From contig NZ_CP061368.1 of the NCBI RefSeq assembly GCF_014725735.1, positions 1,317,225 through 1,381,224 on the forward strand: a DNA stretch of 64,000 nucleotides, in the 5' to 3' direction. This document shows, piece after piece, positions 30,872 to 40,055 of the stretch (position 1 is the first letter of the stretch; each line of letters starts with the position of its first letter). This DNA is from Wenzhouxiangella sp. AB-CW3. Its GTDB lineage: Bacteria > Pseudomonadota > Gammaproteobacteria > Xanthomonadales > Wenzhouxiangellaceae. The position numbers and the translations under genes are program-made. A model generated the notes under the pieces. That model made no database searches. It was not told where the DNA came from and saw only the letters and a list, made by a program, of their open reading frames with translations.

Positions 30872-33217
30872 TCAGATGGAGGTCTCGCTGGAACTCTGTG
30901 CGGCTGTGAGGGAGTCGAGCCGGGCCTGGAAACGTGGCGGCCAGCGCACGCCGGCCTGGACTCGCGCCTGCTCCATCAGCTTGAGACTCCCGACGATATC
31001 GCCTTCCGCTCTGGCCAGTTCCGCCTGCATCACCAGTACTCGCCACTGATCCGCCAGTTCCGAGGGTATGTCCTTCATGGCTGCTTGTGCCCGTTCCCGG
31101 TCATCAATGCTCAGTGCGAACTGGACCAGGTCCGCGATCAGCGCAACTCGTGGTTCAAGCTGATTGACTCTTCGCGCATGCTGCAGGCCTTGTTCAAGCA
31201 GGTCCACGGCCTGCACGGCATCGGCCTGTTTGAACGCCAGGCGGGCACGCAGGTGGTGCCAGGTGGCTGCCTGCAGATCGGGCATGCCGTGTTCCGTGAA
31301 ATCAGTTTTGACCTCATCGAGCCACAAGGCGGCTTCCTCGTGATCCCCATGATTCAGGGCAAGCTCGGCCAGGTCCAGCCGGGCATCAAGCACGCGCGTG
31401 CGCACGTGCGACATCTCTTCGAAGGCCGCCAGTGTTTCCAGCAGCAGCTCGCGACCGAGGTCGTAGTCCTGTTCCGTGGCGGCCAGGCGTCCCAGCCCCC
31501 CCAACGCACTGGCCCGAGCCTGGGCATAACCCATGTCTTCGGCTTTGGCCAGGCCGCGTTCCAGCGTCTGGCGCGCCCGTGCCGGCTCACCGGTGCGAGC
31601 CTGCAGGTGCCCCAGTTGCACTACCGCCCAGGTATGCATGTCGGCCAGTCTCTGGGCCTCGGTCAGCAGGATGGCTTCTTCGATCAGGCGCCGGGTTTCA
31701 TCGAATTGCATGCGCGCCGATGTGGTCGTTGACAGGTTGAGCAGGCTCTGAGCAATCTCGCTGCGGCGACCGTACTGGCGGCGAATCTCCAGCGCCTCGC
31801 GATGCCAGTTTGCAGAAAGTTCCACATCGCCGGCACGCCAGGCGCGCGCGCCCAGCGAGTTGGCGACCAGGGCGCGGCCGGGTTGATAGCCAATACGGGT
31901 GAACAGCCGCATGGCGGTCTCGTTTCGATCCCTGGCCAGCTGGTTTTCGTCCAACGCGCTGAGCATGACCCCCTGGGAAACCAGCGCCTGTGCATGATGG
32001 CGCAGGTGATTGGCCTGCTCGGCCAGTTCGGCCGCGGTCTCGAAATGAATCAGCGCCTGTTCGGCCTCGCCGAGCTGATGCAGAACCACTCCCAGCGAAT
32101 TGTGGACTTCGATGGCCAGCCCGTCTGCCTGGTCCAGGGCGGGATCGGCGAGCAGGACTTCAAGCGCCTCCCGTGCTTCGTGATTCTCGCCGGCCTGGCG
32201 CCGCGCCACGGCCACGAAATAGTGCGCCCAGAGGTGATCGGGCTGGTATGAAAGTATGAGTCCGGCCGTATCCCTGGCCAGTGATGGTGCGCCGGTTTCC
32301 AATGCCTGGATGGTGCGCGCCAGGCTTTCGTTGACCCAGGGGTCGGGAGAGAGGATGTGGCTGCCAGTTCGGGCGGTGACGGGGCGGTAGCGCACATTGA
32401 GTTGATGGGTCAGCTCGCTGAGCGCAACGGCGAGCTGCTCGTGACTGAACTCCAGTAGGTCCTTCAGCTCTCCCTCGCGAGTCAGGATTTCCGCGCCCAG
32501 ATACCAGTGTCCGTCGCTGAAAGCCGCTATCGGTTGAATGATCTCGTCGGCTCGCAAGGCATCACGAATCCAGTCGATCTCCGCCCCTTCTTCAGCGGCG
32601 CCCTGGATGGCATCGCCCAGCACCATCAGTCCGGGAACGCCCGCCAGTGCGTATCCCATCAGGCGTGGCAGGCCGAGTTCGAGCCAGTCCGGTGCGTCTT
32701 CCGTCTCGATCTGTTGAACAGTCGGTGCAATGGCCACGGTGAGAGACTCCGGCGCCACGGTGGGTGCGGGCCACAGCCATAGCAGAATCGCTCCGGTCAG
32801 TAGTAGGCCGGCCAGGGCCAGCCAGCCTGCGGCCGGGGATCGTCGAGCGTGACTCGCAGCAGCAGCGGGCATGGCCTCGGCAACCCCATCGTTGCGATCT
32901 TCAGTCGTGACGGCCGCCACGAACCGGTAGCCGAAGCCGCGCACGGTGGCGATCACTTCCTGGCGCTCGCCGTCATCCTCCACGGCAGCGCGGGCCTTGC
33001 GAACGGTCTGGCTGATGACCGTGTCGGATATGACACGATTGGGCCATAGCGCTTCGGCCAGCTCGTCCTTGCCGACTGCCCGGTCACGGTGCAACAGCAG
33101 GTAATGAATCAACTCCAGCGCCTTTGGTTCAACCGCCACGGGTGCTCCCTCGCGGAACAATTCTCGCGTGTTCCAGTTCAGCTCAAAGGCGCCGAATATC
33201 TGTTTGCTGTCGTTCAC
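30872..33217 (-). CDS. Membrane-anchored winged-helix (OmpR/CadC-type) transcriptional regulator with TPR sensor domain
   Basis: 781 residues. The N-terminus (about 1-105) is an OmpR-type winged helix: LNWNTRELFREG, ALELIHYLLLHRDRAVGKDEL, SDTVISQTVRKARAAVEDD and IATVRGFGYRF. A single membrane helix lies at about 130-150 (GWLALAGLLLTGAILLWLW). The rest is periplasmic: an unassigned domain (about 155-285) and tetratricopeptide-like repeats (about 290-760). CadC-type proteins bind DNA while tethered to the membrane. It is divergent from the secreted-protein genes, and three sets of 11-bp repeats nearby are plausible binding sites. Confidence 0.88.
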   Translation of the reverse strand: MNDSKQIFGAFELNWNTRELFREGAPVAVEPKALELIHYLLLHRDRAVGKDELAEALWPNRVISDTVISQTVRKARAAVEDDGERQEVIATVRGFGYRFVAAVTTEDRNDGVAEAMPAAAASHARRSPAAGWLALAGLLLTGAILLWLWPAPTVAPESLTVAIAPTVQQIETEDAPDWLELGLPRLMGYALAGVPGLMVLGDAIQGAAEEGAEIDWIRDALRADEIIQPIAAFSDGHWYLGAEILTREGELKDLLEFSHEQLAVALSELTHQLNVRYRPVTARTGSHILSPDPWVNESLARTIQALETGAPSLARDTAGLILSYQPDHLWAHYFVAVARRQAGENHEAREALEVLLADPALDQADGLAIEVHNSLGVVLHQLGEAEQALIHFETAAELAEQANHLRHHAQALVSQGVMLSALDENQLARDRNETAMRLFTRIGYQPGRALVANSLGARAWRAGDVELSANWHREALEIRRQYGRRSEIAQSLLNLSTTTSARMQFDETRRLIEEAILLTEAQRLADMHTWAVVQLGHLQARTGEPARARQTLERGLAKAEDMGYAQARASALGGLGRLAATEQDYDLGRELLLETLAAFEEMSHVRTRVLDARLDLAELALNHGDHEEAALWLDEVKTDFTEHGMPDLQAATWHHLRARLAFKQADAVQAVDLLEQGLQHARRVNQLEPRVALIADLVQFALSIDDRERAQAAMKDIPSELADQWRVLVMQAELARAEGDIVGSLKLMEQARVQAGVRWPPRFQARLDSLTAAQSSSETSI

Positions 33218-33355
33218 AATGGGGTCGGGCAGTTCAGGCAGTTGGTTTGCCCGCTCAATTTATACCATTTGGCCATCAGTCTGCCAGCGGGGACCCTGAT
33301 CGAACAGCGTCATTTGGCGCCATGCTGCAGTGTCCGCACCAACACTGGGTGCGGC

Positions 33356-33388
33356 TTGATGATTGCGTGACGATTCGGTGACGAACCC
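33356..33388 (+). promoter_or_regulatory. Operator candidate 1: three contiguous 11-bp direct repeats
   Basis: Units TTGATGATTGC, GTGACGATTCG and GTGACGAACCC follow each other without gaps. They fit the consensus RTGAYGAWNCS except at the first base of unit 1. Direct repeats about one helical turn apart are what OmpR/PhoB-type winged helices bind. They lie 139-171 bases from the regulator start and 185-217 from the ATG of the S74-domain gene. The remainder of 33218-33572 holds no gene. Confidence 0.6.
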
Positions 33389-33450
33389 ACGCAGCATGCT
33401 GCTGTTTGCAGTCGGGCTATGGCTTTCCGGACTGACCGTTATGGCCGGTT

Positions 33451-33483
33451 GTCGAAATCATCGAATCATCATCGCTTCATCAT
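33451..33483 (-). promoter_or_regulatory. Operator candidate 2: three contiguous 11-bp direct repeats, minus strand
   Basis: Read on the minus strand the units are ATGATGAAGCG, ATGATGATTCG and ATGATTTCGAC. The set is in opposite orientation to candidate 1 and ends 90 bases before the ATG at 33573. Downstream of it lie TTTCACGG and GATCAACCTTG, both also found downstream of candidate 3. Confidence 0.6.
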
Positions 33484-33572
33484 GCGAACCGACCCTTCTG
33501 CTGCTGCAATGGCGTTGCATTTCACGGGCTGTGTGGCTCGTTTGATCAACCTTGGACAGTGAGGTAAGGAAG

Positions 33573-35120
33573 ATGAAGGGTTTCAAGTGGATGTTCTTGG
33601 CGGCTCTGGCACTGACGTGGTGCCAGGCTCAGGCGTCGGAACTCTGGAAGGAAGGTGATGCGGGAATCTACTTCGATCTGGGTTCGGTGGGTATTGGCAC
33701 GGAACAGATGCTGGCGCCGCTGCATGTGGTCATGCATGAAGACGGCGCACTGGACGAGAACGCAGCGGTCTTTGTCCGCAACCAATCCCATCTGGAGAAG
33801 TCGACCGGCTTGCTATCCGAGGCAGTCGGTGGTCGCGAAACCTTTGCAATCTATGGCAGGGCGCAGGGGGATATCACCAGTGCCGCAGGCCGGTTCGTCA
33901 ACCTGAGCGCCCAAGGCGGTTATGGTCTCCATGCAGATGCGCAGGCGCAGTCCGGACCGGCAGTTGGCTTGTTCGCCACTTCGCGTTCACCGGATGGCTA
34001 CGGCATACGCGTCAGCAGCGATGAGAGCGCGTGGTCGGGATACTTTACCGGTGGTCGATCCTATTTCGGCAATCGGGTCGGTATTGGCACCGAGTCCATC
34101 TCCGACAGCCTGCATGTACGCGCCCCCAGTGGCCAGAACGCATTGCGTGTGCAGACTGGGGGTCGCACTGCGTTTCGCGTCTACGGGAATTCCGGGGTGG
34201 GCGTTGGCGCCAACTACAACAGTTCCGGGGTGCCGGAACGGGGTTTGCGGGTGCATGGAGATGGAGACTTTGGTGGAGGGCTTTCAGCCACTTCGCTCAC
34301 CGTTACAACGGATCCGGAGCTTGATGGCTACTACTGGTTTCCGGATTGGTTCGATGACGAAGTTGTTGCGCCACACTTCATCGCCTGGAATAACCCCGCC
34401 GAAGGTGTTTATGCCCGTAGCACCCTGCTGTTGTTCCATCCCGATCGCCAGGCGCCAATGGCGACGTTTCGATCGTTTGGCGATGAGGATGATCGGGTAG
34501 ACCAGGTCGCACTCGGTGGGTGGCTGGACCCACTCATCCTTCAAGGCATGCCGTGGACCTATCCACGTGAAATTGAACTGCACGTCCATGGAAGGGCGCG
34601 CAAACCGGGTGGCGGGCTTTGGTCCACTTTTTCTGACGAGCGTCTGAAGGATGAGGTCGAGCTGCTGGAAACCGGCATGCTGGATCGACTCACCAGCCTC
34701 AATTCCTACCGCTACACCTATCTGCGCGATGCCATCGAGCAGGGGCTGGGTCATCCCGGAGAATACATCGGCTTTATGGCCCAGGAAGTCGAAATGCTGT
34801 TCTCGCAATGGGTTTACGAGAACAACCAAGGCTATCTGGAGATCTCCGAGCAGGGATTCACCGCCATCGTCGCCCAGGCGCTGCGCGAGCTTCGGGAAGA
34901 ACAGCGCCTTGCCGTCCGGCAGGCTGAGGAAGGCTTCAGGGCTGAAGTTGCGGCACGGGATGAGCGCGTCCACGAGCTGAGCGAGCGCCTGGCGGCCGCC
35001 GAGTCCACACAGCAGCAGATTTTTGCGCTGCAGGCCGAGCGGGATGCGATGTCCGAGCGCCTTGCCGTGCTGGAAGCGCTGCTGTTGGGCGGCGAGATCG
35101 CCTCGGTTCAATCACCTTGA
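33573..35120 (+). CDS. Secreted protein with C-terminal S74-type intramolecular chaperone domain
   Basis: 515 residues from ATG 33573 (GGTAAGGA upstream). A signal peptide (MKGFKWMFLAALALTWCQAQA) precedes a Gly-rich beta region with recurring VGIGTE units (LGSVGIGTEQM, NRVGIGTESI). At about 355-450 comes FSDERLKDEVELL, GEYIGFMAQEVE and SEQGFTAIVAQALRELREEQ, a Peptidase_S74 domain. Its SDERLK segment carries the Ser and Lys of the self-cleaving dyad described for phage endosialidase chaperones. A coiled coil ends the protein. It is likely a trimeric surface or secreted fibre that may cleave off its chaperone. The next gene starts 29 bases after its stop. Confidence 0.82.
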   Translation: MKGFKWMFLAALALTWCQAQASELWKEGDAGIYFDLGSVGIGTEQMLAPLHVVMHEDGALDENAAVFVRNQSHLEKSTGLLSEAVGGRETFAIYGRAQGDITSAAGRFVNLSAQGGYGLHADAQAQSGPAVGLFATSRSPDGYGIRVSSDESAWSGYFTGGRSYFGNRVGIGTESISDSLHVRAPSGQNALRVQTGGRTAFRVYGNSGVGVGANYNSSGVPERGLRVHGDGDFGGGLSATSLTVTTDPELDGYYWFPDWFDDEVVAPHFIAWNNPAEGVYARSTLLLFHPDRQAPMATFRSFGDEDDRVDQVALGGWLDPLILQGMPWTYPREIELHVHGRARKPGGGLWSTFSDERLKDEVELLETGMLDRLTSLNSYRYTYLRDAIEQGLGHPGEYIGFMAQEVEMLFSQWVYENNQGYLEISEQGFTAIVAQALRELREEQRLAVRQAEEGFRAEVAARDERVHELSERLAAAESTQQQIFALQAERDAMSERLAVLEALLLGGEIASVQSP

Positions 35121-35149
35121 AGAGACAAGCATTAGCTGGGAGTAACGTA

Positions 35150-38100
35150 ATGGCCAGGATCAGATTCGTTCTGGGATTTTCACTTCTGTTGACTTCCGCT
35201 GTGGTGCATGCCAACTACGTGGTCAACTCCAACACTGACGCACCGCGGTCGCCTTCGGCTGCGGCAGGTGACTGCGATACTGGCAACGTGGTGCCGGCGC
35301 CCGGCGCCGGCTTCGAGCCCGAGTGCACGCTGCGGGCCGCAATTCAGACTGCCAACCTGGTCGATTCCGGATCCCTGGCGATCATCAGCTTTGCCAGCCA
35401 CATTCCGACCAGCGGGGGCAATACAGTATTCACCCCGGCGACCGCATTGCCGGATATCGAAACGCCGATCCGCATCGATGGCACCAGCCATCCCAACTAC
35501 GATCCGCAGGATGGGTTTCCGCGGGTCATTCTCGACGGCAACTCGCTGACTGAAAGCGCGCATGGTCTGCGAATCACGGCCGATGGCTCGTTCTCCGAAA
35601 TCATTTCACTGAATATCATCCGCTTTTCCAGTGGCGCGGGGATTCAGATGACCAATGCCGACAACGTACTGGTGGGTCAGTCGCAGATCGGCCAGTTTCT
35701 CGGATCGAATGTGCCTGCACCCAACAACTGGGGAATTCGGATACTCAATGGCAACAATAACCAGATTGGTGGCACCAGCCAGTTCGCTCCACCGATCGGC
35801 CCCTGGCGCAACGTGATCTCCGGCAATACAGCCAGTGGGATAGAGATTGCCGGCGACAATAATCGCCTGGGTCGTAATCACATTGGTGTCAGTCCGATCG
35901 GTGATCAGCCCACGCCCAACGGTGCGGTGGGGGTATCGATTCTAGGAGGTCAGGGCAACGAGATTGGCCACCCGCAGGGACGCAGCGTGATTGCCGCGAA
36001 TGGTGGTGGTGATGTGCTGATTCTGCAGTCGGCCAGCCAGACTCTCATTCGCTGCTCCTTCATCGGCACCAATGCGGCGGGTGATGGCCTGCTGTCCCCG
36101 GGACCTGAGCCGGCCATAGAGGTTGTGGGCAATGGCCACACCATTGGCCAGCAAGGCTGCGCCAATCGTATTGCCGGGCAGGTGGCCATCGGTCGAGACG
36201 GCCAGTTTCCCGAGTCGGCCAACTTCAACACGGTCGAGTACAACTTCGTCGGCACCAATCCGGATGGCGACGATCTGGGGACCGACCAAACCGGTATCTT
36301 CGTGCTGGATGGTGAAGGCAATGAGATCCTCCACAATACGGTGGGCTTCGCGCTGACGGGCATCGGGCTGGGCGTCAACACGGTCAACAATTTCGTGCGT
36401 TCCAACTTTGTCGGCGTCAATGCCGACGGTGATGCCTTGCCCGTCATGTTCAGTGCCATTCGCGATGCCGGGCAAGGCAATGGCAACAACATCGGCGGTT
36501 CGCAGGAAGCCTGGGGCAACGTGGTTGGCCATGCCGCGATCGGGATCGAACTTGCGGCCGACAGCACGCTCTCCAGAGTCGAGGGGAATCTCGTTGGGGT
36601 CACGCCGGGCGGCGCGCCGGCGCCGGTCACTCATGGTATCCAGGCCTCGGGCAGTCAGCACCAGATCGGTACCATCGGTACGGGTAACCGCGTCGGTCAT
36701 GCCACACTTTCAGGCATTCGCCTGATGCCGGGCTCGGCGGATGTCTCGGTGGCCGACAATCGCATCGGCACCGAGCCGATGCTTGACGGAGGCTTCGGGT
36801 CCGATGCCATCGGCATCCGGGTGTCGGGAGCGGATCACCAGATCGGGAGCTTCAACTATATTGGCGGCATGGACAGAGGTATCCGTGTTTTCGAGGGGAC
36901 TCACGACATCTTCGACAACCGGCTTGGCATCGATGAGGTCCTCCAGGCCTACCCGATTGCCACGCATGGCATTCTGCTCGGCAATGGCTCGAGCAGTGTC
37001 CGGGTCATCGGCAACTGGATCGGCCACAGCACACGCGGCATTCGCATCAACAGTAGTTCGCCGTTCGCGGTGGTTGGCAACAATTGGGTCGGCGTCACTC
37101 CCGACGGCGATGATATCGGCAATACCCTGTATGGCCTCTACACCACCGGATCCGGCACGATGGTCGGTGTTGATCCGTCCACGTCAGATAGCATGCCCAA
37201 CGTATTCGGCTTCAACGGTAGCGGGGGCGGAGTCCGGGTCGGCAGTGACAACGCTCAAGTCATCAATAACTACATTGGCAGCACTCCTGCAGGCCTGACG
37301 GTCCCCAACGGTGGCGAGGCCGGACTGATCATTCTGGAATCGCCGCAGAATGTTCGTATCGGGCTCTCTGCCGAAATCAGTCAAAACATCATCCGCGGCA
37401 ATGCGGGGCACGGTATATCCGTCAGATCGGCGGGGCCGGACGTCGAGATTGGTGTCAACAGTATTCGGGGCAATGGTGGCCACGGCATATTGATTGGCCA
37501 AGGGGTATCCGATGTGGTCATGCAGAGCTCGGTAGACCCCAGCCTGGGTTCTCTCGACTTTTACGGCAATGAGGGTAGTGCCATTGCCTTTGATCCGGAT
37601 GCCGGCGCCGGCAACAGCATCCGCCGCGTTCTGCAACGCCGCCATGACAAGGGAATTGATCTGGGGCCGGGCGGGCGCGATCAGGATCCCGGGGATGCCG
37701 ACACCGGCCCGAACAACCTGCAGAATTATCCCGAATTCGACGAATTGGCATCCGGGTTCAATCCGGATGCCGGAAACGTGGAGATCCGCTTTCGCGTCGA
37801 TTCAGCACCTGGTAACTCGGCCTACCCGATTGTAGTTGATGTCTACAGGAGCGACCCCGCCGGTTCCGGATTGCTGATGGGTTGGATTGGCACCGTGGTT
37901 TACGAGCAGGCCGACGCACAGGAGTTCGTCGAGGTCAGTCTGACGCCGGTGCCCGGCACCCAGACGCCGGAGGCAGAGTCCTGGTTCGTGGCCGTTGCCA
38001 CCGACAACCTGGGCAATTCCAGTGAAGTTTCCGAACCCTTCGGCGGACCACCCCGCTACACCATCGGCGGCGTCGTTAACAACCTGGCCGGCAACGGAAT

Positions 38101-38368
38101 GAATCCCCTGGTGCTGCAGAACAACGGTGGCGACGATCTGGATATCACCCAGGCCGGGACTTTCTCGTTCCAGTTCGATACGCCAGTGCCGGACGGATTC
38201 ACCTACGAGGTCAGCGTCAGTCAGCAGCCTGACGGCCAGTCTTGCACGGTGAGTAATGGCAGTGGCACCGTCGACGGCGACGACGTCAACGACGTCCAGG
38301 TCATCTGTGATGCACTGGGAGATGTGATCTTCACAGACCGATTTGAGTTCGATCCGATTCTCCGGTAG
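35150..38368 (+). CDS. Large secreted right-handed beta-helix protein with CSLREA-type start
   Basis: 1072 residues from ATG 35150 (GGGAG upstream), with a signal peptide (VLGFSLLLTSAVVHA). Near residue 50 is ECTLRAAIQTAN, a variant of the CSLREA motif that opens many secreted beta-helix proteins. Repeated turns follow (VIGNWIGHSTRGIRI, VVGNNWVGVTPDGDDIGN, NNYIGSTPAGL), as in NosD/pectate-lyase-like solenoids. From about residue 860 come two or three beta-sandwich-like regions, and the end is VIFTDRFEFDPILR. No catalytic residues are identified. An adhesin or surface polysaccharide-binding role is an inference. Confidence 0.82.
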   Translation: MARIRFVLGFSLLLTSAVVHANYVVNSNTDAPRSPSAAAGDCDTGNVVPAPGAGFEPECTLRAAIQTANLVDSGSLAIISFASHIPTSGGNTVFTPATALPDIETPIRIDGTSHPNYDPQDGFPRVILDGNSLTESAHGLRITADGSFSEIISLNIIRFSSGAGIQMTNADNVLVGQSQIGQFLGSNVPAPNNWGIRILNGNNNQIGGTSQFAPPIGPWRNVISGNTASGIEIAGDNNRLGRNHIGVSPIGDQPTPNGAVGVSILGGQGNEIGHPQGRSVIAANGGGDVLILQSASQTLIRCSFIGTNAAGDGLLSPGPEPAIEVVGNGHTIGQQGCANRIAGQVAIGRDGQFPESANFNTVEYNFVGTNPDGDDLGTDQTGIFVLDGEGNEILHNTVGFALTGIGLGVNTVNNFVRSNFVGVNADGDALPVMFSAIRDAGQGNGNNIGGSQEAWGNVVGHAAIGIELAADSTLSRVEGNLVGVTPGGAPAPVTHGIQASGSQHQIGTIGTGNRVGHATLSGIRLMPGSADVSVADNRIGTEPMLDGGFGSDAIGIRVSGADHQIGSFNYIGGMDRGIRVFEGTHDIFDNRLGIDEVLQAYPIATHGILLGNGSSSVRVIGNWIGHSTRGIRINSSSPFAVVGNNWVGVTPDGDDIGNTLYGLYTTGSGTMVGVDPSTSDSMPNVFGFNGSGGGVRVGSDNAQVINNYIGSTPAGLTVPNGGEAGLIILESPQNVRIGLSAEISQNIIRGNAGHGISVRSAGPDVEIGVNSIRGNGGHGILIGQGVSDVVMQSSVDPSLGSLDFYGNEGSAIAFDPDAGAGNSIRRVLQRRHDKGIDLGPGGRDQDPGDADTGPNNLQNYPEFDELASGFNPDAGNVEIRFRVDSAPGNSAYPIVVDVYRSDPAGSGLLMGWIGTVVYEQADAQEFVEVSLTPVPGTQTPEAESWFVAVATDNLGNSSEVSEPFGGPPRYTIGGVVNNLAGNGMNPLVLQNNGGDDLDITQAGTFSFQFDTPVPDGFTYEVSVSQQPDGQSCTVSNGSGTVDGDDVNDVQVICDALGDVIFTDRFEFDPILR

Positions 38369-38378
38369 CCAACGCATT

Positions 38379-38457
38379 CGGTCGGCAGGTCAGCCTGGCG
38401 CGTGCGTAGGCAAGTTGATCCTGGCCTGGGCGCTACTCCCGCCGCGCCTGCCGACCG
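38379..38457. repeat. 11-bp perfect inverted repeat downstream of the beta-helix gene
   Basis: CGGTCGGCAGG (38379-38389) and CCTGCCGACCG (38447-38457) could form an 11-bp stem with a 57-base loop that is itself G+C-rich. It starts 10 bases after the stop codon. It may stabilise or end the upstream transcript, although no T-run follows. Confidence 0.5.
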
Positions 38458-38472
38458 ATCCTCCAATGGAAG

Positions 38473-38505
38473 GACAAAATCACGCCAAAGTCATGGTTTC
38501 GTCAT
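38473..38505 (-). promoter_or_regulatory. Operator candidate 3: three contiguous 11-bp direct repeats, minus strand
   Basis: On the minus strand the units are ATGACGAAACC, ATGACTTTGGC and GTGATTTTGTC. RTGAY is kept in all three; the rest of the consensus is kept only in the first. The set ends 74 bases before the ATG at 38580, a position like that of candidate 2 before its gene. Confidence 0.55.
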
Positions 38506-38579
38506 GCCGGGTGGACTGACCCCGACAAGACTGTGTTTCACGGACCAGGATCAACCTTGAACGCGACGGGAGAAGTGCA

Positions 38580-40055
38580 ATGAGAAAGACAGTCTTGGTA
38601 GTCATGGCCACCGCCGGCCTGTTGGGGGCAAGTGGCAACGCCTTCGGCCAGCACCTGTGGATCGGCAACGAGTCGGAGGACTGGTTCGATTCCGACAACT
38701 GGGACGGCGGTGTACCGAACTCGGGAACCAGTCAGGTTCGTATCAATACCACCAACCCCAACCCGACTTTGATCGATGGTAACGCGGCAGAGACCGGCAA
38801 CAGCTTCAGCGTCGGTCACAACGCCAGCGGTGAATTGTCGATTGTCAACGGCGGCAGCCTGCATACCCATGGTTCAGGCGTCGTGGGCAGCCAGGCGGGA
38901 GGCGATGGTAGCGTGATCATCCGCGGAGCGGGTTCGAGTTGGGAGGTGGACTCATCGAACTCTGCTATTGGAAACTCTGGCGCCGGTGAACTAGAGATTC
39001 TGGACGGTGGCCAGTGGATCGGTCCTGGAAGCGGCACTATCAGCATTGGTTGGCAGGCCTCGGGCAGCGGAAGTGTTGTCGTCAGTGGCACCGGGTCGAG
39101 CATGGATTTTGGTGGCGGGAATTTCTGGCTTGGGCATGTCGGCTCAGGCCAGATGACCATCAGTGACGGCGGCCAGGTGCTGTTCGGCACAACCTCCACT
39201 GTGGCGCAGGCAGCGAACAGCCATGGCGAAGTCCTGTTGACCGGTGCCGGGTCCCTGCTCTCCGGAACTCGTCTGCATGTGGGCAACAGCAGCAGCGGCC
39301 ACCTGCGATTGGTCGATGGCGCCATGTTGCATCTGACGGGCAGCGGATCTCCGGCGAACTACCGGTTGGTGATTGGCGCCAATCCGGGATCGGAAGGCGA
39401 GGTGGTCGTTGGCGGGCCCGCTGGCGAGTCGCCAGAAGCTCCCGGCCAGATGGATCTGTTTGGCGGGGTTCTGTTCAACGGCGGTGCCGGAACGCTGGTG
39501 TTCAACCACACCGGTTCGCTGGACATGCCGTTTCCCATCGAAGGCCCGGTCGGCACGAATGCCAGCGGTCTGATCCGTGCAGAGAACGGCGCCACGCTGT
39601 TTTCCGGTCAGCCGGTCAACTACAGCGGCAGCCTGCTCATCGAGGAGGCTGGGGTTTTCGGCGCCAGTGGGCAGTTAGGCGATGTGACCAATGAAGGCAC
39701 CCTGGTGGCCAGCCCCGGCCAGTCGGCCGCGCTTAGCATAGGCGGTGACTATGTCCACGGCGAGAATGCCGTGCTGGCCATCGAGCTCGCGCCGGGCCCG
39801 GTCGTTGATCTCGTCGAGGTAAGCGGTGCGGTGACCATCGAGGGCGGCAGTGTGGCTTTCACCGTTCTGCCGGGCAACTACGGCCGAGAGCCCCTCGACG
39901 GCCTTTATCCGATATTGACGGCAGCCGAAGGCATTGTTGGGGAGTTCGATCAGATTGTCACCAGCAATCCGAACGCCTATGTGCTGGTCCATGATGGTGA
40001 TACCGTCTATGTGCAGGTCAACGACCGCATGTTCCATGATCGCTACGAGCAGTGA
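38580..40055 (+). CDS. Secreted beta-solenoid protein with autotransporter-passenger-like repeats
   Basis: 491 residues with a signal peptide (MRKTVLVVMATAGLLGASGNAFG) and GGGAGAAG upstream. WIGNESEDWFDSDNWDGGVPNSG is the typical opening of autotransporter-type or PEP-associated passenger proteins. Repeats such as SGELSIVNGGSLHTHGSG, GSVVVSGTGSSMDFGGG and GQMTISDGGQVLFG build a beta-solenoid. No C-terminal translocator barrel is present; the protein ends RMFHDRYEQ, similar to the end of the upstream beta-helix protein. It is probably exported and retained at the surface by other means. The function is unknown. Confidence 0.8.
   Translation: MRKTVLVVMATAGLLGASGNAFGQHLWIGNESEDWFDSDNWDGGVPNSGTSQVRINTTNPNPTLIDGNAAETGNSFSVGHNASGELSIVNGGSLHTHGSGVVGSQAGGDGSVIIRGAGSSWEVDSSNSAIGNSGAGELEILDGGQWIGPGSGTISIGWQASGSGSVVVSGTGSSMDFGGGNFWLGHVGSGQMTISDGGQVLFGTTSTVAQAANSHGEVLLTGAGSLLSGTRLHVGNSSSGHLRLVDGAMLHLTGSGSPANYRLVIGANPGSEGEVVVGGPAGESPEAPGQMDLFGGVLFNGGAGTLVFNHTGSLDMPFPIEGPVGTNASGLIRAENGATLFSGQPVNYSGSLLIEEAGVFGASGQLGDVTNEGTLVASPGQSAALSIGGDYVHGENAVLAIELAPGPVVDLVEVSGAVTIEGGSVAFTVLPGNYGREPLDGLYPILTAAEGIVGEFDQIVTSNPNAYVLVHDGDTVYVQVNDRMFHDRYEQ

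Follow-up and report, generated by a model that had tools for sequence, protein, structure and literature searches.

The window analysed here is a stretch of 64 000 nucleotides from Wenzhouxiangella sp. AB-CW3 (contig NZ_CP061368.1, positions 1 317 225 to 1 381 224 of the forward strand), with a GC content of 61.7%. It holds the gene of a CadC-like membrane regulator, genes for exported proteins in divergent orientation, and three arrays of 11-bp direct repeats (sets 1 to 3) placed before these genes (Table 1). This text deals with the relation between the arrays and the regulator. An earlier note on this DNA had reported three contiguous arrays of three 11-bp units each, and the sequence confirmed all three at the coordinates it gave. 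The array lies 89 bp (set 2) or 74 bp (set 3) before the start codon of the following gene, and set 1 lies 138 bp before the GTG of the regulator; the note had counted 90 and 74 bases for sets 2 and 3. The pentamer RTGAY, which it had found common to all units, is present in each of them except the first unit of set 1 (TTGAT). Its extended consensus, RTGAYGAWNCS, fits chiefly the first units and was replaced by AAATCAY-nnAAAAATCAY-nnTTCRTCATGC, written in the sense direction of the target gene.

Table 1. Position of the genes, repeat arrays and promoter features in the window
Feature	Coordinates	Strand	Remarks
Membrane one-component regulator, 781 amino acids, GTG start	30872..33217	-	Winged helix, one transmembrane helix, alpha/beta segment, TPR solenoid
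DNA-binding domain of the regulator, residues 1-107	32897..33217	-	Recognition helix region ISDTVISQTVRKAR
-10-like GACACT for the regulator	33329..33334	-	Same distance from set 1 as in target promoters; tentative
Set 1, array of 3 x 11 bp	33356..33388	+	TTGATGATTGC GTGACGATTCG GTGACGAACCC; precedes the regulator gene in antisense orientation
Set 2, array of 3 x 11 bp	33451..33483	-	ATGATGAAGCG ATGATGATTCG ATGATTTCGAC; precedes the S74-protein gene
-10-like TGCAAT (set 2)	33505..33510	+	Has the T but not the A of the pair at fixed distance; tentative
Leader segment	33520..33554	+	TTTCACGG at 33520, GATCAACCTTG at 33544
Exported 515-amino-acid protein with C-terminal Peptidase_S74 (endosialidase-type) chaperone domain	33573..35120	+	Pfam PF13884, E 2e-9
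Exported 1072-amino-acid CSLREA-like right-handed beta-helix protein	35150..38368	+	Pfam Beta_helix, E 7e-9; C-terminal end IFTDRFEFDPILR
Set 3, array of 3 x 11 bp	38473..38505	-	ATGACGAAACC ATGACTTTGGC GTGATTTTGTC; precedes the T5SS-repeat-protein gene
-10-like AAGACT (set 3)	38527..38532	+	At the fixed distance; tentative
Second leader copy	38536..38559	+	TTTCACGG at 38536, GATCAACCTTG at 38549
Exported 491-amino-acid protein with T5SS/PEP-CTERM-associated repeats	38580..40055	+	NCBIfam TIGR04393, E 4e-29; set 3 target; C-terminal end MFHDRYEQ

The regulator begins with a winged helix of the OmpR/PhoB type, as expected of a CadC/ToxR-like protein (Pfam Trans_reg_C, E 8e-15, 55.1 bits for a cut-off of 26.2), and also matches TPR_12 (E 1e-16). 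The nearest solved structures of its DNA-binding domain were the DNA-binding domains of CadC (5ju7, E 8e-14) and of PhoB on DNA (1gxp, E 1.5e-13). Hydropathy was calculated in 19-residue windows and gave one peak above 1.6 (residues 128-151), which corresponds to a single transmembrane helix. The AlphaFold2 model (pLDDT 81) contains the winged helix, a helix at residues 132-148, an alpha/beta segment and a TPR solenoid at about residues 293-780; its best fold matches were TPR scaffolds. Positive residues preceding the transmembrane helix suggest that the C-terminus is periplasmic. The protein reached 44 bits with the NCBIfam model of the CadC equivalog, for a cut-off of 400: it is CadC-like in layout and not a CadC equivalog.

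Arrays of the form TGAY-N7-TGAY-N7-TGAY (period 11) occurred three times in the window, where the other periods from 8 to 15 gave 0-1 matches and the shuffled window 0.05. Such head-to-tail half-sites, phased at about 10-11 bp, are a trait of direct-repeat operators of the OmpR/PhoB type. The genome-wide search that the earlier note had called for (3 844 697 bp) gave five arrays, with none for the reversed-pattern control: the three window sets, one array within rnc (L034) and a Pho-box-like one at phoB (L003). From base composition, about 1.4 arrays are expected per genome and 0.003 in the 9.2-kb locus. Given the shortness of TGAY and this genome-wide expectation, the arrays could be due to chance, or be spacer-like tandem repeats without a protein partner. 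This is extremely improbable, as three arrays are found in 5.2 kb and the comparative data set out hereafter (conserved profile, target classes, orientation, co-occurrence) already speak against it.

The pattern RTGAY repeated three times at 11 bp was then far commoner than its reversed control in 151 genomes of the order. Inspection by eye divided the matches between Pho-box-like sites (TGACA) and sites similar to sets 2 and 3, hereafter the second class. Fourteen sites of this second class (sets 2 and 3 and 12 sites from relatives) served to train a profile on sequence alone, R1, set 1 being kept outside the training. Up to E 10, R1 matched only the three window sets in the AB-CW3 genome. 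Sets 2 and 3, both training sites, scored 26.5 bits (E 2e-5) and 26.6 bits (E 1.8e-5), and set 1 was the poorest match of the three (12.5 bits, E 0.57). Orthologues of the regulator were searched for in the relatives by winged-helix alignment, and only 10 of the 151 genomes encode a winged helix with 60% identity or more to its own (60-83%). R1 sites at E<1e-3 were present in 11 genomes, that is in nine of the ten with a regulator orthologue versus two of the 141 others (Fisher p 6e-12). The co-occurrence held within the family (p 9e-7) and within the genus (p 1e-5). Because R1 sites were chosen by motif resemblance and not by the presence of the regulator, the test does not suffer from circularity on that point. 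The arrays are thus probably the operators of the divergent CadC/ToxR-like membrane regulator, which would govern a surface-protein regulon. This is what the earlier note had proposed, and co-occurrence, array position and strand in the relatives and a fixed distance to the -10 element largely support it, with binding as the predicted step.

At target promoters, RTGAY is carried by the strand opposite to the gene. In the relatives, arrays were located about 50-140 bp before genes for exported CSLREA/beta-helix, T5SS-repeat, S74-like or collagen-like proteins. Second-class arrays precede CSLREA/beta-helix genes at L072 (twice), L075, L076, L080 and L086, T5SS/PEP-CTERM-repeat genes homologous to that at 38580-40055 at L079 and at the held-out loci L150 and L151, an SGNH-like gene at L074 and a collagen-like gene at L073. 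Among the held-out R1 sites (E<0.1, regulator-bearing genomes), seven of nine lay directly before exported-type genes (L150, L151, L157, L085 twice, L153 and L154), which encode T5SS-repeat, CSLREA/beta-helix, YQG-type or DRFE-tailed proteins. The remaining two were a site inside a coding sequence and a near-palindrome that recurs in another genome. Arrays were often on contigs other than that of the regulator (G006, G014, G022). The full layout, with the regulator, divergent set-1-like and set-2-like arrays and a CSLREA gene, is retained at L080 (G028). One array in a divergent arrangement is found at L086 (G025), where the flanking genes (NAD synthase, succinyl-CoA ligase, AceK) are also conserved.

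Two side observations concern the relatives. The regulator orthologues at L077:4041-4928 and L091:4490-5335 (G015 and G035) are apparently truncated or frameshifted in draft assemblies, and the arrays remain. A near-palindromic array, CCGATGACGAAATGTTGACGTTTCAGTGACGTCACCGG, is identical at L155:4074-4106 and L156:4029-4061, in two different genomes, and might belong to a mobile or repeated element; the identical near-palindromic array of G002:C34 and G014:C161 was left out of the target evidence.

Alternatively, the arrays could be bound by PhoB, as Pho boxes, or by some other response regulator of the OmpR family (CenR-like or ArcA-like), the CadC-like protein being a bystander. The sites of PhoB (TGTCA-N6-TGTCA) and TcpP (TGTAA-N6-TGTAA) have an 11-bp spacing (PMC11358694). 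Upstream of envelope genes, CenR recognises TGA-N8-TGA, and the site read by ArcA is made of three direct repeats (PMC9275681). Moreover, the same TGAY pattern search caught three TGAC units at 11 bp elsewhere in AB-CW3 (L003:1501-1527; G000:C1:2502562-2502588). This array overlaps the start region of a response-regulator gene and was assigned to the phoB promoter because that gene directly precedes a PhoR-like kinase gene; the Pho-box-like site was used as a positive control. R1, however, misses the phoB site, and the base before RTCA is never T in sets 1 to 3, so that none of their nine units contains TGTCA. The Pho box was rejected as the identity of the sets. R1 sites track the winged helix of this regulator across genomes, whereas response regulators are generally to be expected in all genomes. 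Arrays are also found in the regulator's own intergenic region in G028 (L080), G025 (L086) and G015 (L085). Recognition by a response regulator is therefore quite unlikely.

To define the promoter geometry, 21 target promoters were aligned on the array in the sense direction of the gene. They were otherwise unalike outside the array (median identity 28%). Position 56 was A in 15 and position 60 was T in 16 of the promoters; both bases occurred together in 14 of the 21 (next best position, 5), and in 18 if they were allowed to move by up to 2 bp. A -10 element has its two key bases, A and T, at this distance of four positions, and the array therefore abuts or overlaps the -35 region. Activators that stand in for a -35 usually bind there. 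The sigma-70 consensus and terminators were looked for in both intergenic regions, with no match.

With this geometry, the regulator might bind the arrays and repress the surface genes until a signal is received. A protein bound up to the -35 region could block RNA polymerase, and no good -35 was seen. Furthermore, paralogues with an ALTRA-type recognition helix have arrays in the opposite orientation about 20 bp before their own starts. Yet the lack of a consensus -35 and the poor -10 elements are what is expected of activator-dependent promoters, and the array geometry is the same at most target promoters. CadC and PhoB are activators on a similar architecture. Repression is thus considered unlikely, and activation by the regulator is preferred.

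The regulator shares with E. coli CadC and Vibrio ToxR-TcpP the OmpR/PhoB-type winged helix, the single transmembrane helix, a predicted extracytoplasmic sensor side and a divergent target operon. It differs from CadC by its putative C-terminal sensor, modelled as a TPR solenoid of about 490 residues, by its predicted targets (exported beta-helix, T5SS-repeat and S74 proteins) and by its proposed operator, made of three head-to-tail 11-bp units, whereas the two TTAxxxxT sites of E. coli CadC are arranged head to head (PMC5430869). With PhoB, TcpP, CenR and ArcA, the system has in common direct repeats of a TCA/TGA core at a period of 11 bp. Unlike the Pho box, the arrays have no TGTCA; of their three units, the middle one contains an A-tract, and a conserved TTCRTCATGC is found on the promoter side. 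Unlike PhoB, the regulator is devoid of a receiver domain, and the -10 element is about 22 bp from the last TCA. A winged helix followed by a helical-repeat domain is also the layout of the Salmonella HilA/EilA type, with which the NCBIfam match is weak (E 2.5e-7, far below the cut-off); in contrast to these proteins, the regulator has a transmembrane helix, a much longer TPR array and unrelated targets. The novelty lies in the association proposed here between a TPR-type membrane regulator, a triple head-to-tail operator with a fixed promoter geometry, and surface-protein targets. No earlier description of TPR-type CadC regulators with direct repeats, CSLREA or a DGFE tail was found in the literature searched, which was covered in part.

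According to the mechanism we propose, three winged-helix domains would occupy the array head to tail, all on the same face of the DNA and one per 11-bp unit, in the way of PhoB on its 11-bp half-sites. The promoter-proximal unit would reach the -35 region, with the weak -10 element about 21 bp further down, and the regulator would recruit polymerase at the weak surface-protein promoters. The TPR solenoid may sense something outside the cytoplasm. Two units would be activated: one is the S74 gene together with the following CSLREA/beta-helix gene, the other is the T5SS-repeat-protein gene. We infer in this way the binding, activation rather than repression, the oligomeric state, the signal and the role of the TPR domain as sensor. 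The regulator probably also activates itself through set 1, as the earlier note had suggested. This is the weakest part of the proposal, because set 1 has the low R1 score given above and equivalent antisense arrays before the regulator were found only in G028 (L080) and G015 (L085).

Several points weigh against this interpretation. It is built on comparative evidence, from which binding and expression are predicted. The profile classes were set up, and the -10 element was found, by inspection after the fact, and the -10-like GACACT of set 1 is a two-base match. The regulator is present in G016 without a convincing R1 site, and an R1 site is present in G013 without a close regulator; both are fragmented metagenome-assembled genomes. 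One held-out R1 match (G012:C194) falls in a coding region, and the array of G035 adjoins a T5SS-repeat coding sequence without a clean start. Finally, the head-to-head precedent of E. coli CadC gives no backing to the head-to-tail arrangement, which was deduced from the DNA.

The promoters of sets 2 and 3 share TTTCACGG and GATCAACCTTG, as the earlier note had stated. Their sharing was verified; as a conserved regulatory element they did not hold, being local to AB-CW3. GATCAACCTTG has three copies in the genome, the third within a ribosomal-protein gene. Both words were rejected as parts of the operator since they are missing from the promoters of the relatives. For this reason, and because they are downstream of the predicted -10 element, they look like a local leader similarity.

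Concerning the target genes, the S74 protein, first target of set 2, has a hydrophobic, signal-like N-terminus. Its gene ends 29 bp upstream of that of the CSLREA-like protein and both are probably in one operon; the latter protein matches NCBIfam CSLREA with E 3.5e-4, below the cut-off of that family. In the T5SS-repeat protein, Pfam gave no C-terminal beta-barrel translocator domain, and T5SS/PEP-CTERM repeats were the only matches, so that it does not qualify as a type V autotransporter. A tail of the form [IVL]F.DRFE closes two exported proteins of the window (38336-38368 and 40029-40055, with DRYE in the latter). The corresponding DNA pattern had 28 matches in AB-CW3 (L252-L279) versus one for the reversed control. 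Most of them were in frame, 0-7 residues from the stop of long, mostly exported-looking proteins. Pfam and NCBIfam gave no family match over the tail, which may be a C-terminal sorting tag.

The upstream regions of 101 winged-helix-TPR regulators of the order were also collected. Three TGAY at period 11 were present in 16 of the 101 (mean of shuffles, 0.03). When all 4-mers were scanned without bias at periods 6-18, TGAC at 11 was the clear maximum with 11 regions (next, 5). Regions negative for TGAY also had an excess of period 11 with other words (15, versus 1-8 at other periods). The words found at 11 bp were TGAAGA (L161, L165, L175), CCTTG (L194, L199), TGGGG (L183) and TGGAGATC (L188). 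In regulators with the helix [ST]E[TA]A[LMV]TRA, the gene start is preceded at about 20-50 bp by four TGAC units. Four-fold TGAC arrays gave 30 matches in 398 genomes of the order (L280-L309) and none with the reversed pattern; a winged-helix gene starts within 250 bp at 15 of these loci, two of which, with the array on the strand opposite to the gene, are probably phoB. Quadruple TGAC arrays stand before ALTRA-helix regulators in several families, and several of these genomes have one or two more before unrelated genes. The proposed pairs of helix and word are ISDxVISQT with TGAY at targets, [ST]E[TA]A[LMV]TRA with four TGAC at the regulator's own promoter, ISDTVISQA with TGAAGA and SEST[IV] with CCTTG. 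It is conceivable, although we hold it tentatively, that a large family of membrane regulators of the winged-helix-TPR type shares one operator grammar of three or four head-to-tail 11-bp units, the half-site word changing with the recognition helix. If this is true, the DNA code of many orphan regulators would be readable from the genome alone, and a general relation between helix and half-site would be a natural data set from which to read the DNA specificity of winged helices.

AB-CW3 is a soda-lake bacterium which preys on Gram-positive cells and requires direct contact with its food (PMC7691419). In this contact-dependent predator, the arrays would tie an orphan membrane regulator to its operator and to a few surface proteins that are not characterised otherwise. 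The promoter architecture is testable, and similar regulons can be sought in other genomes with the motif.

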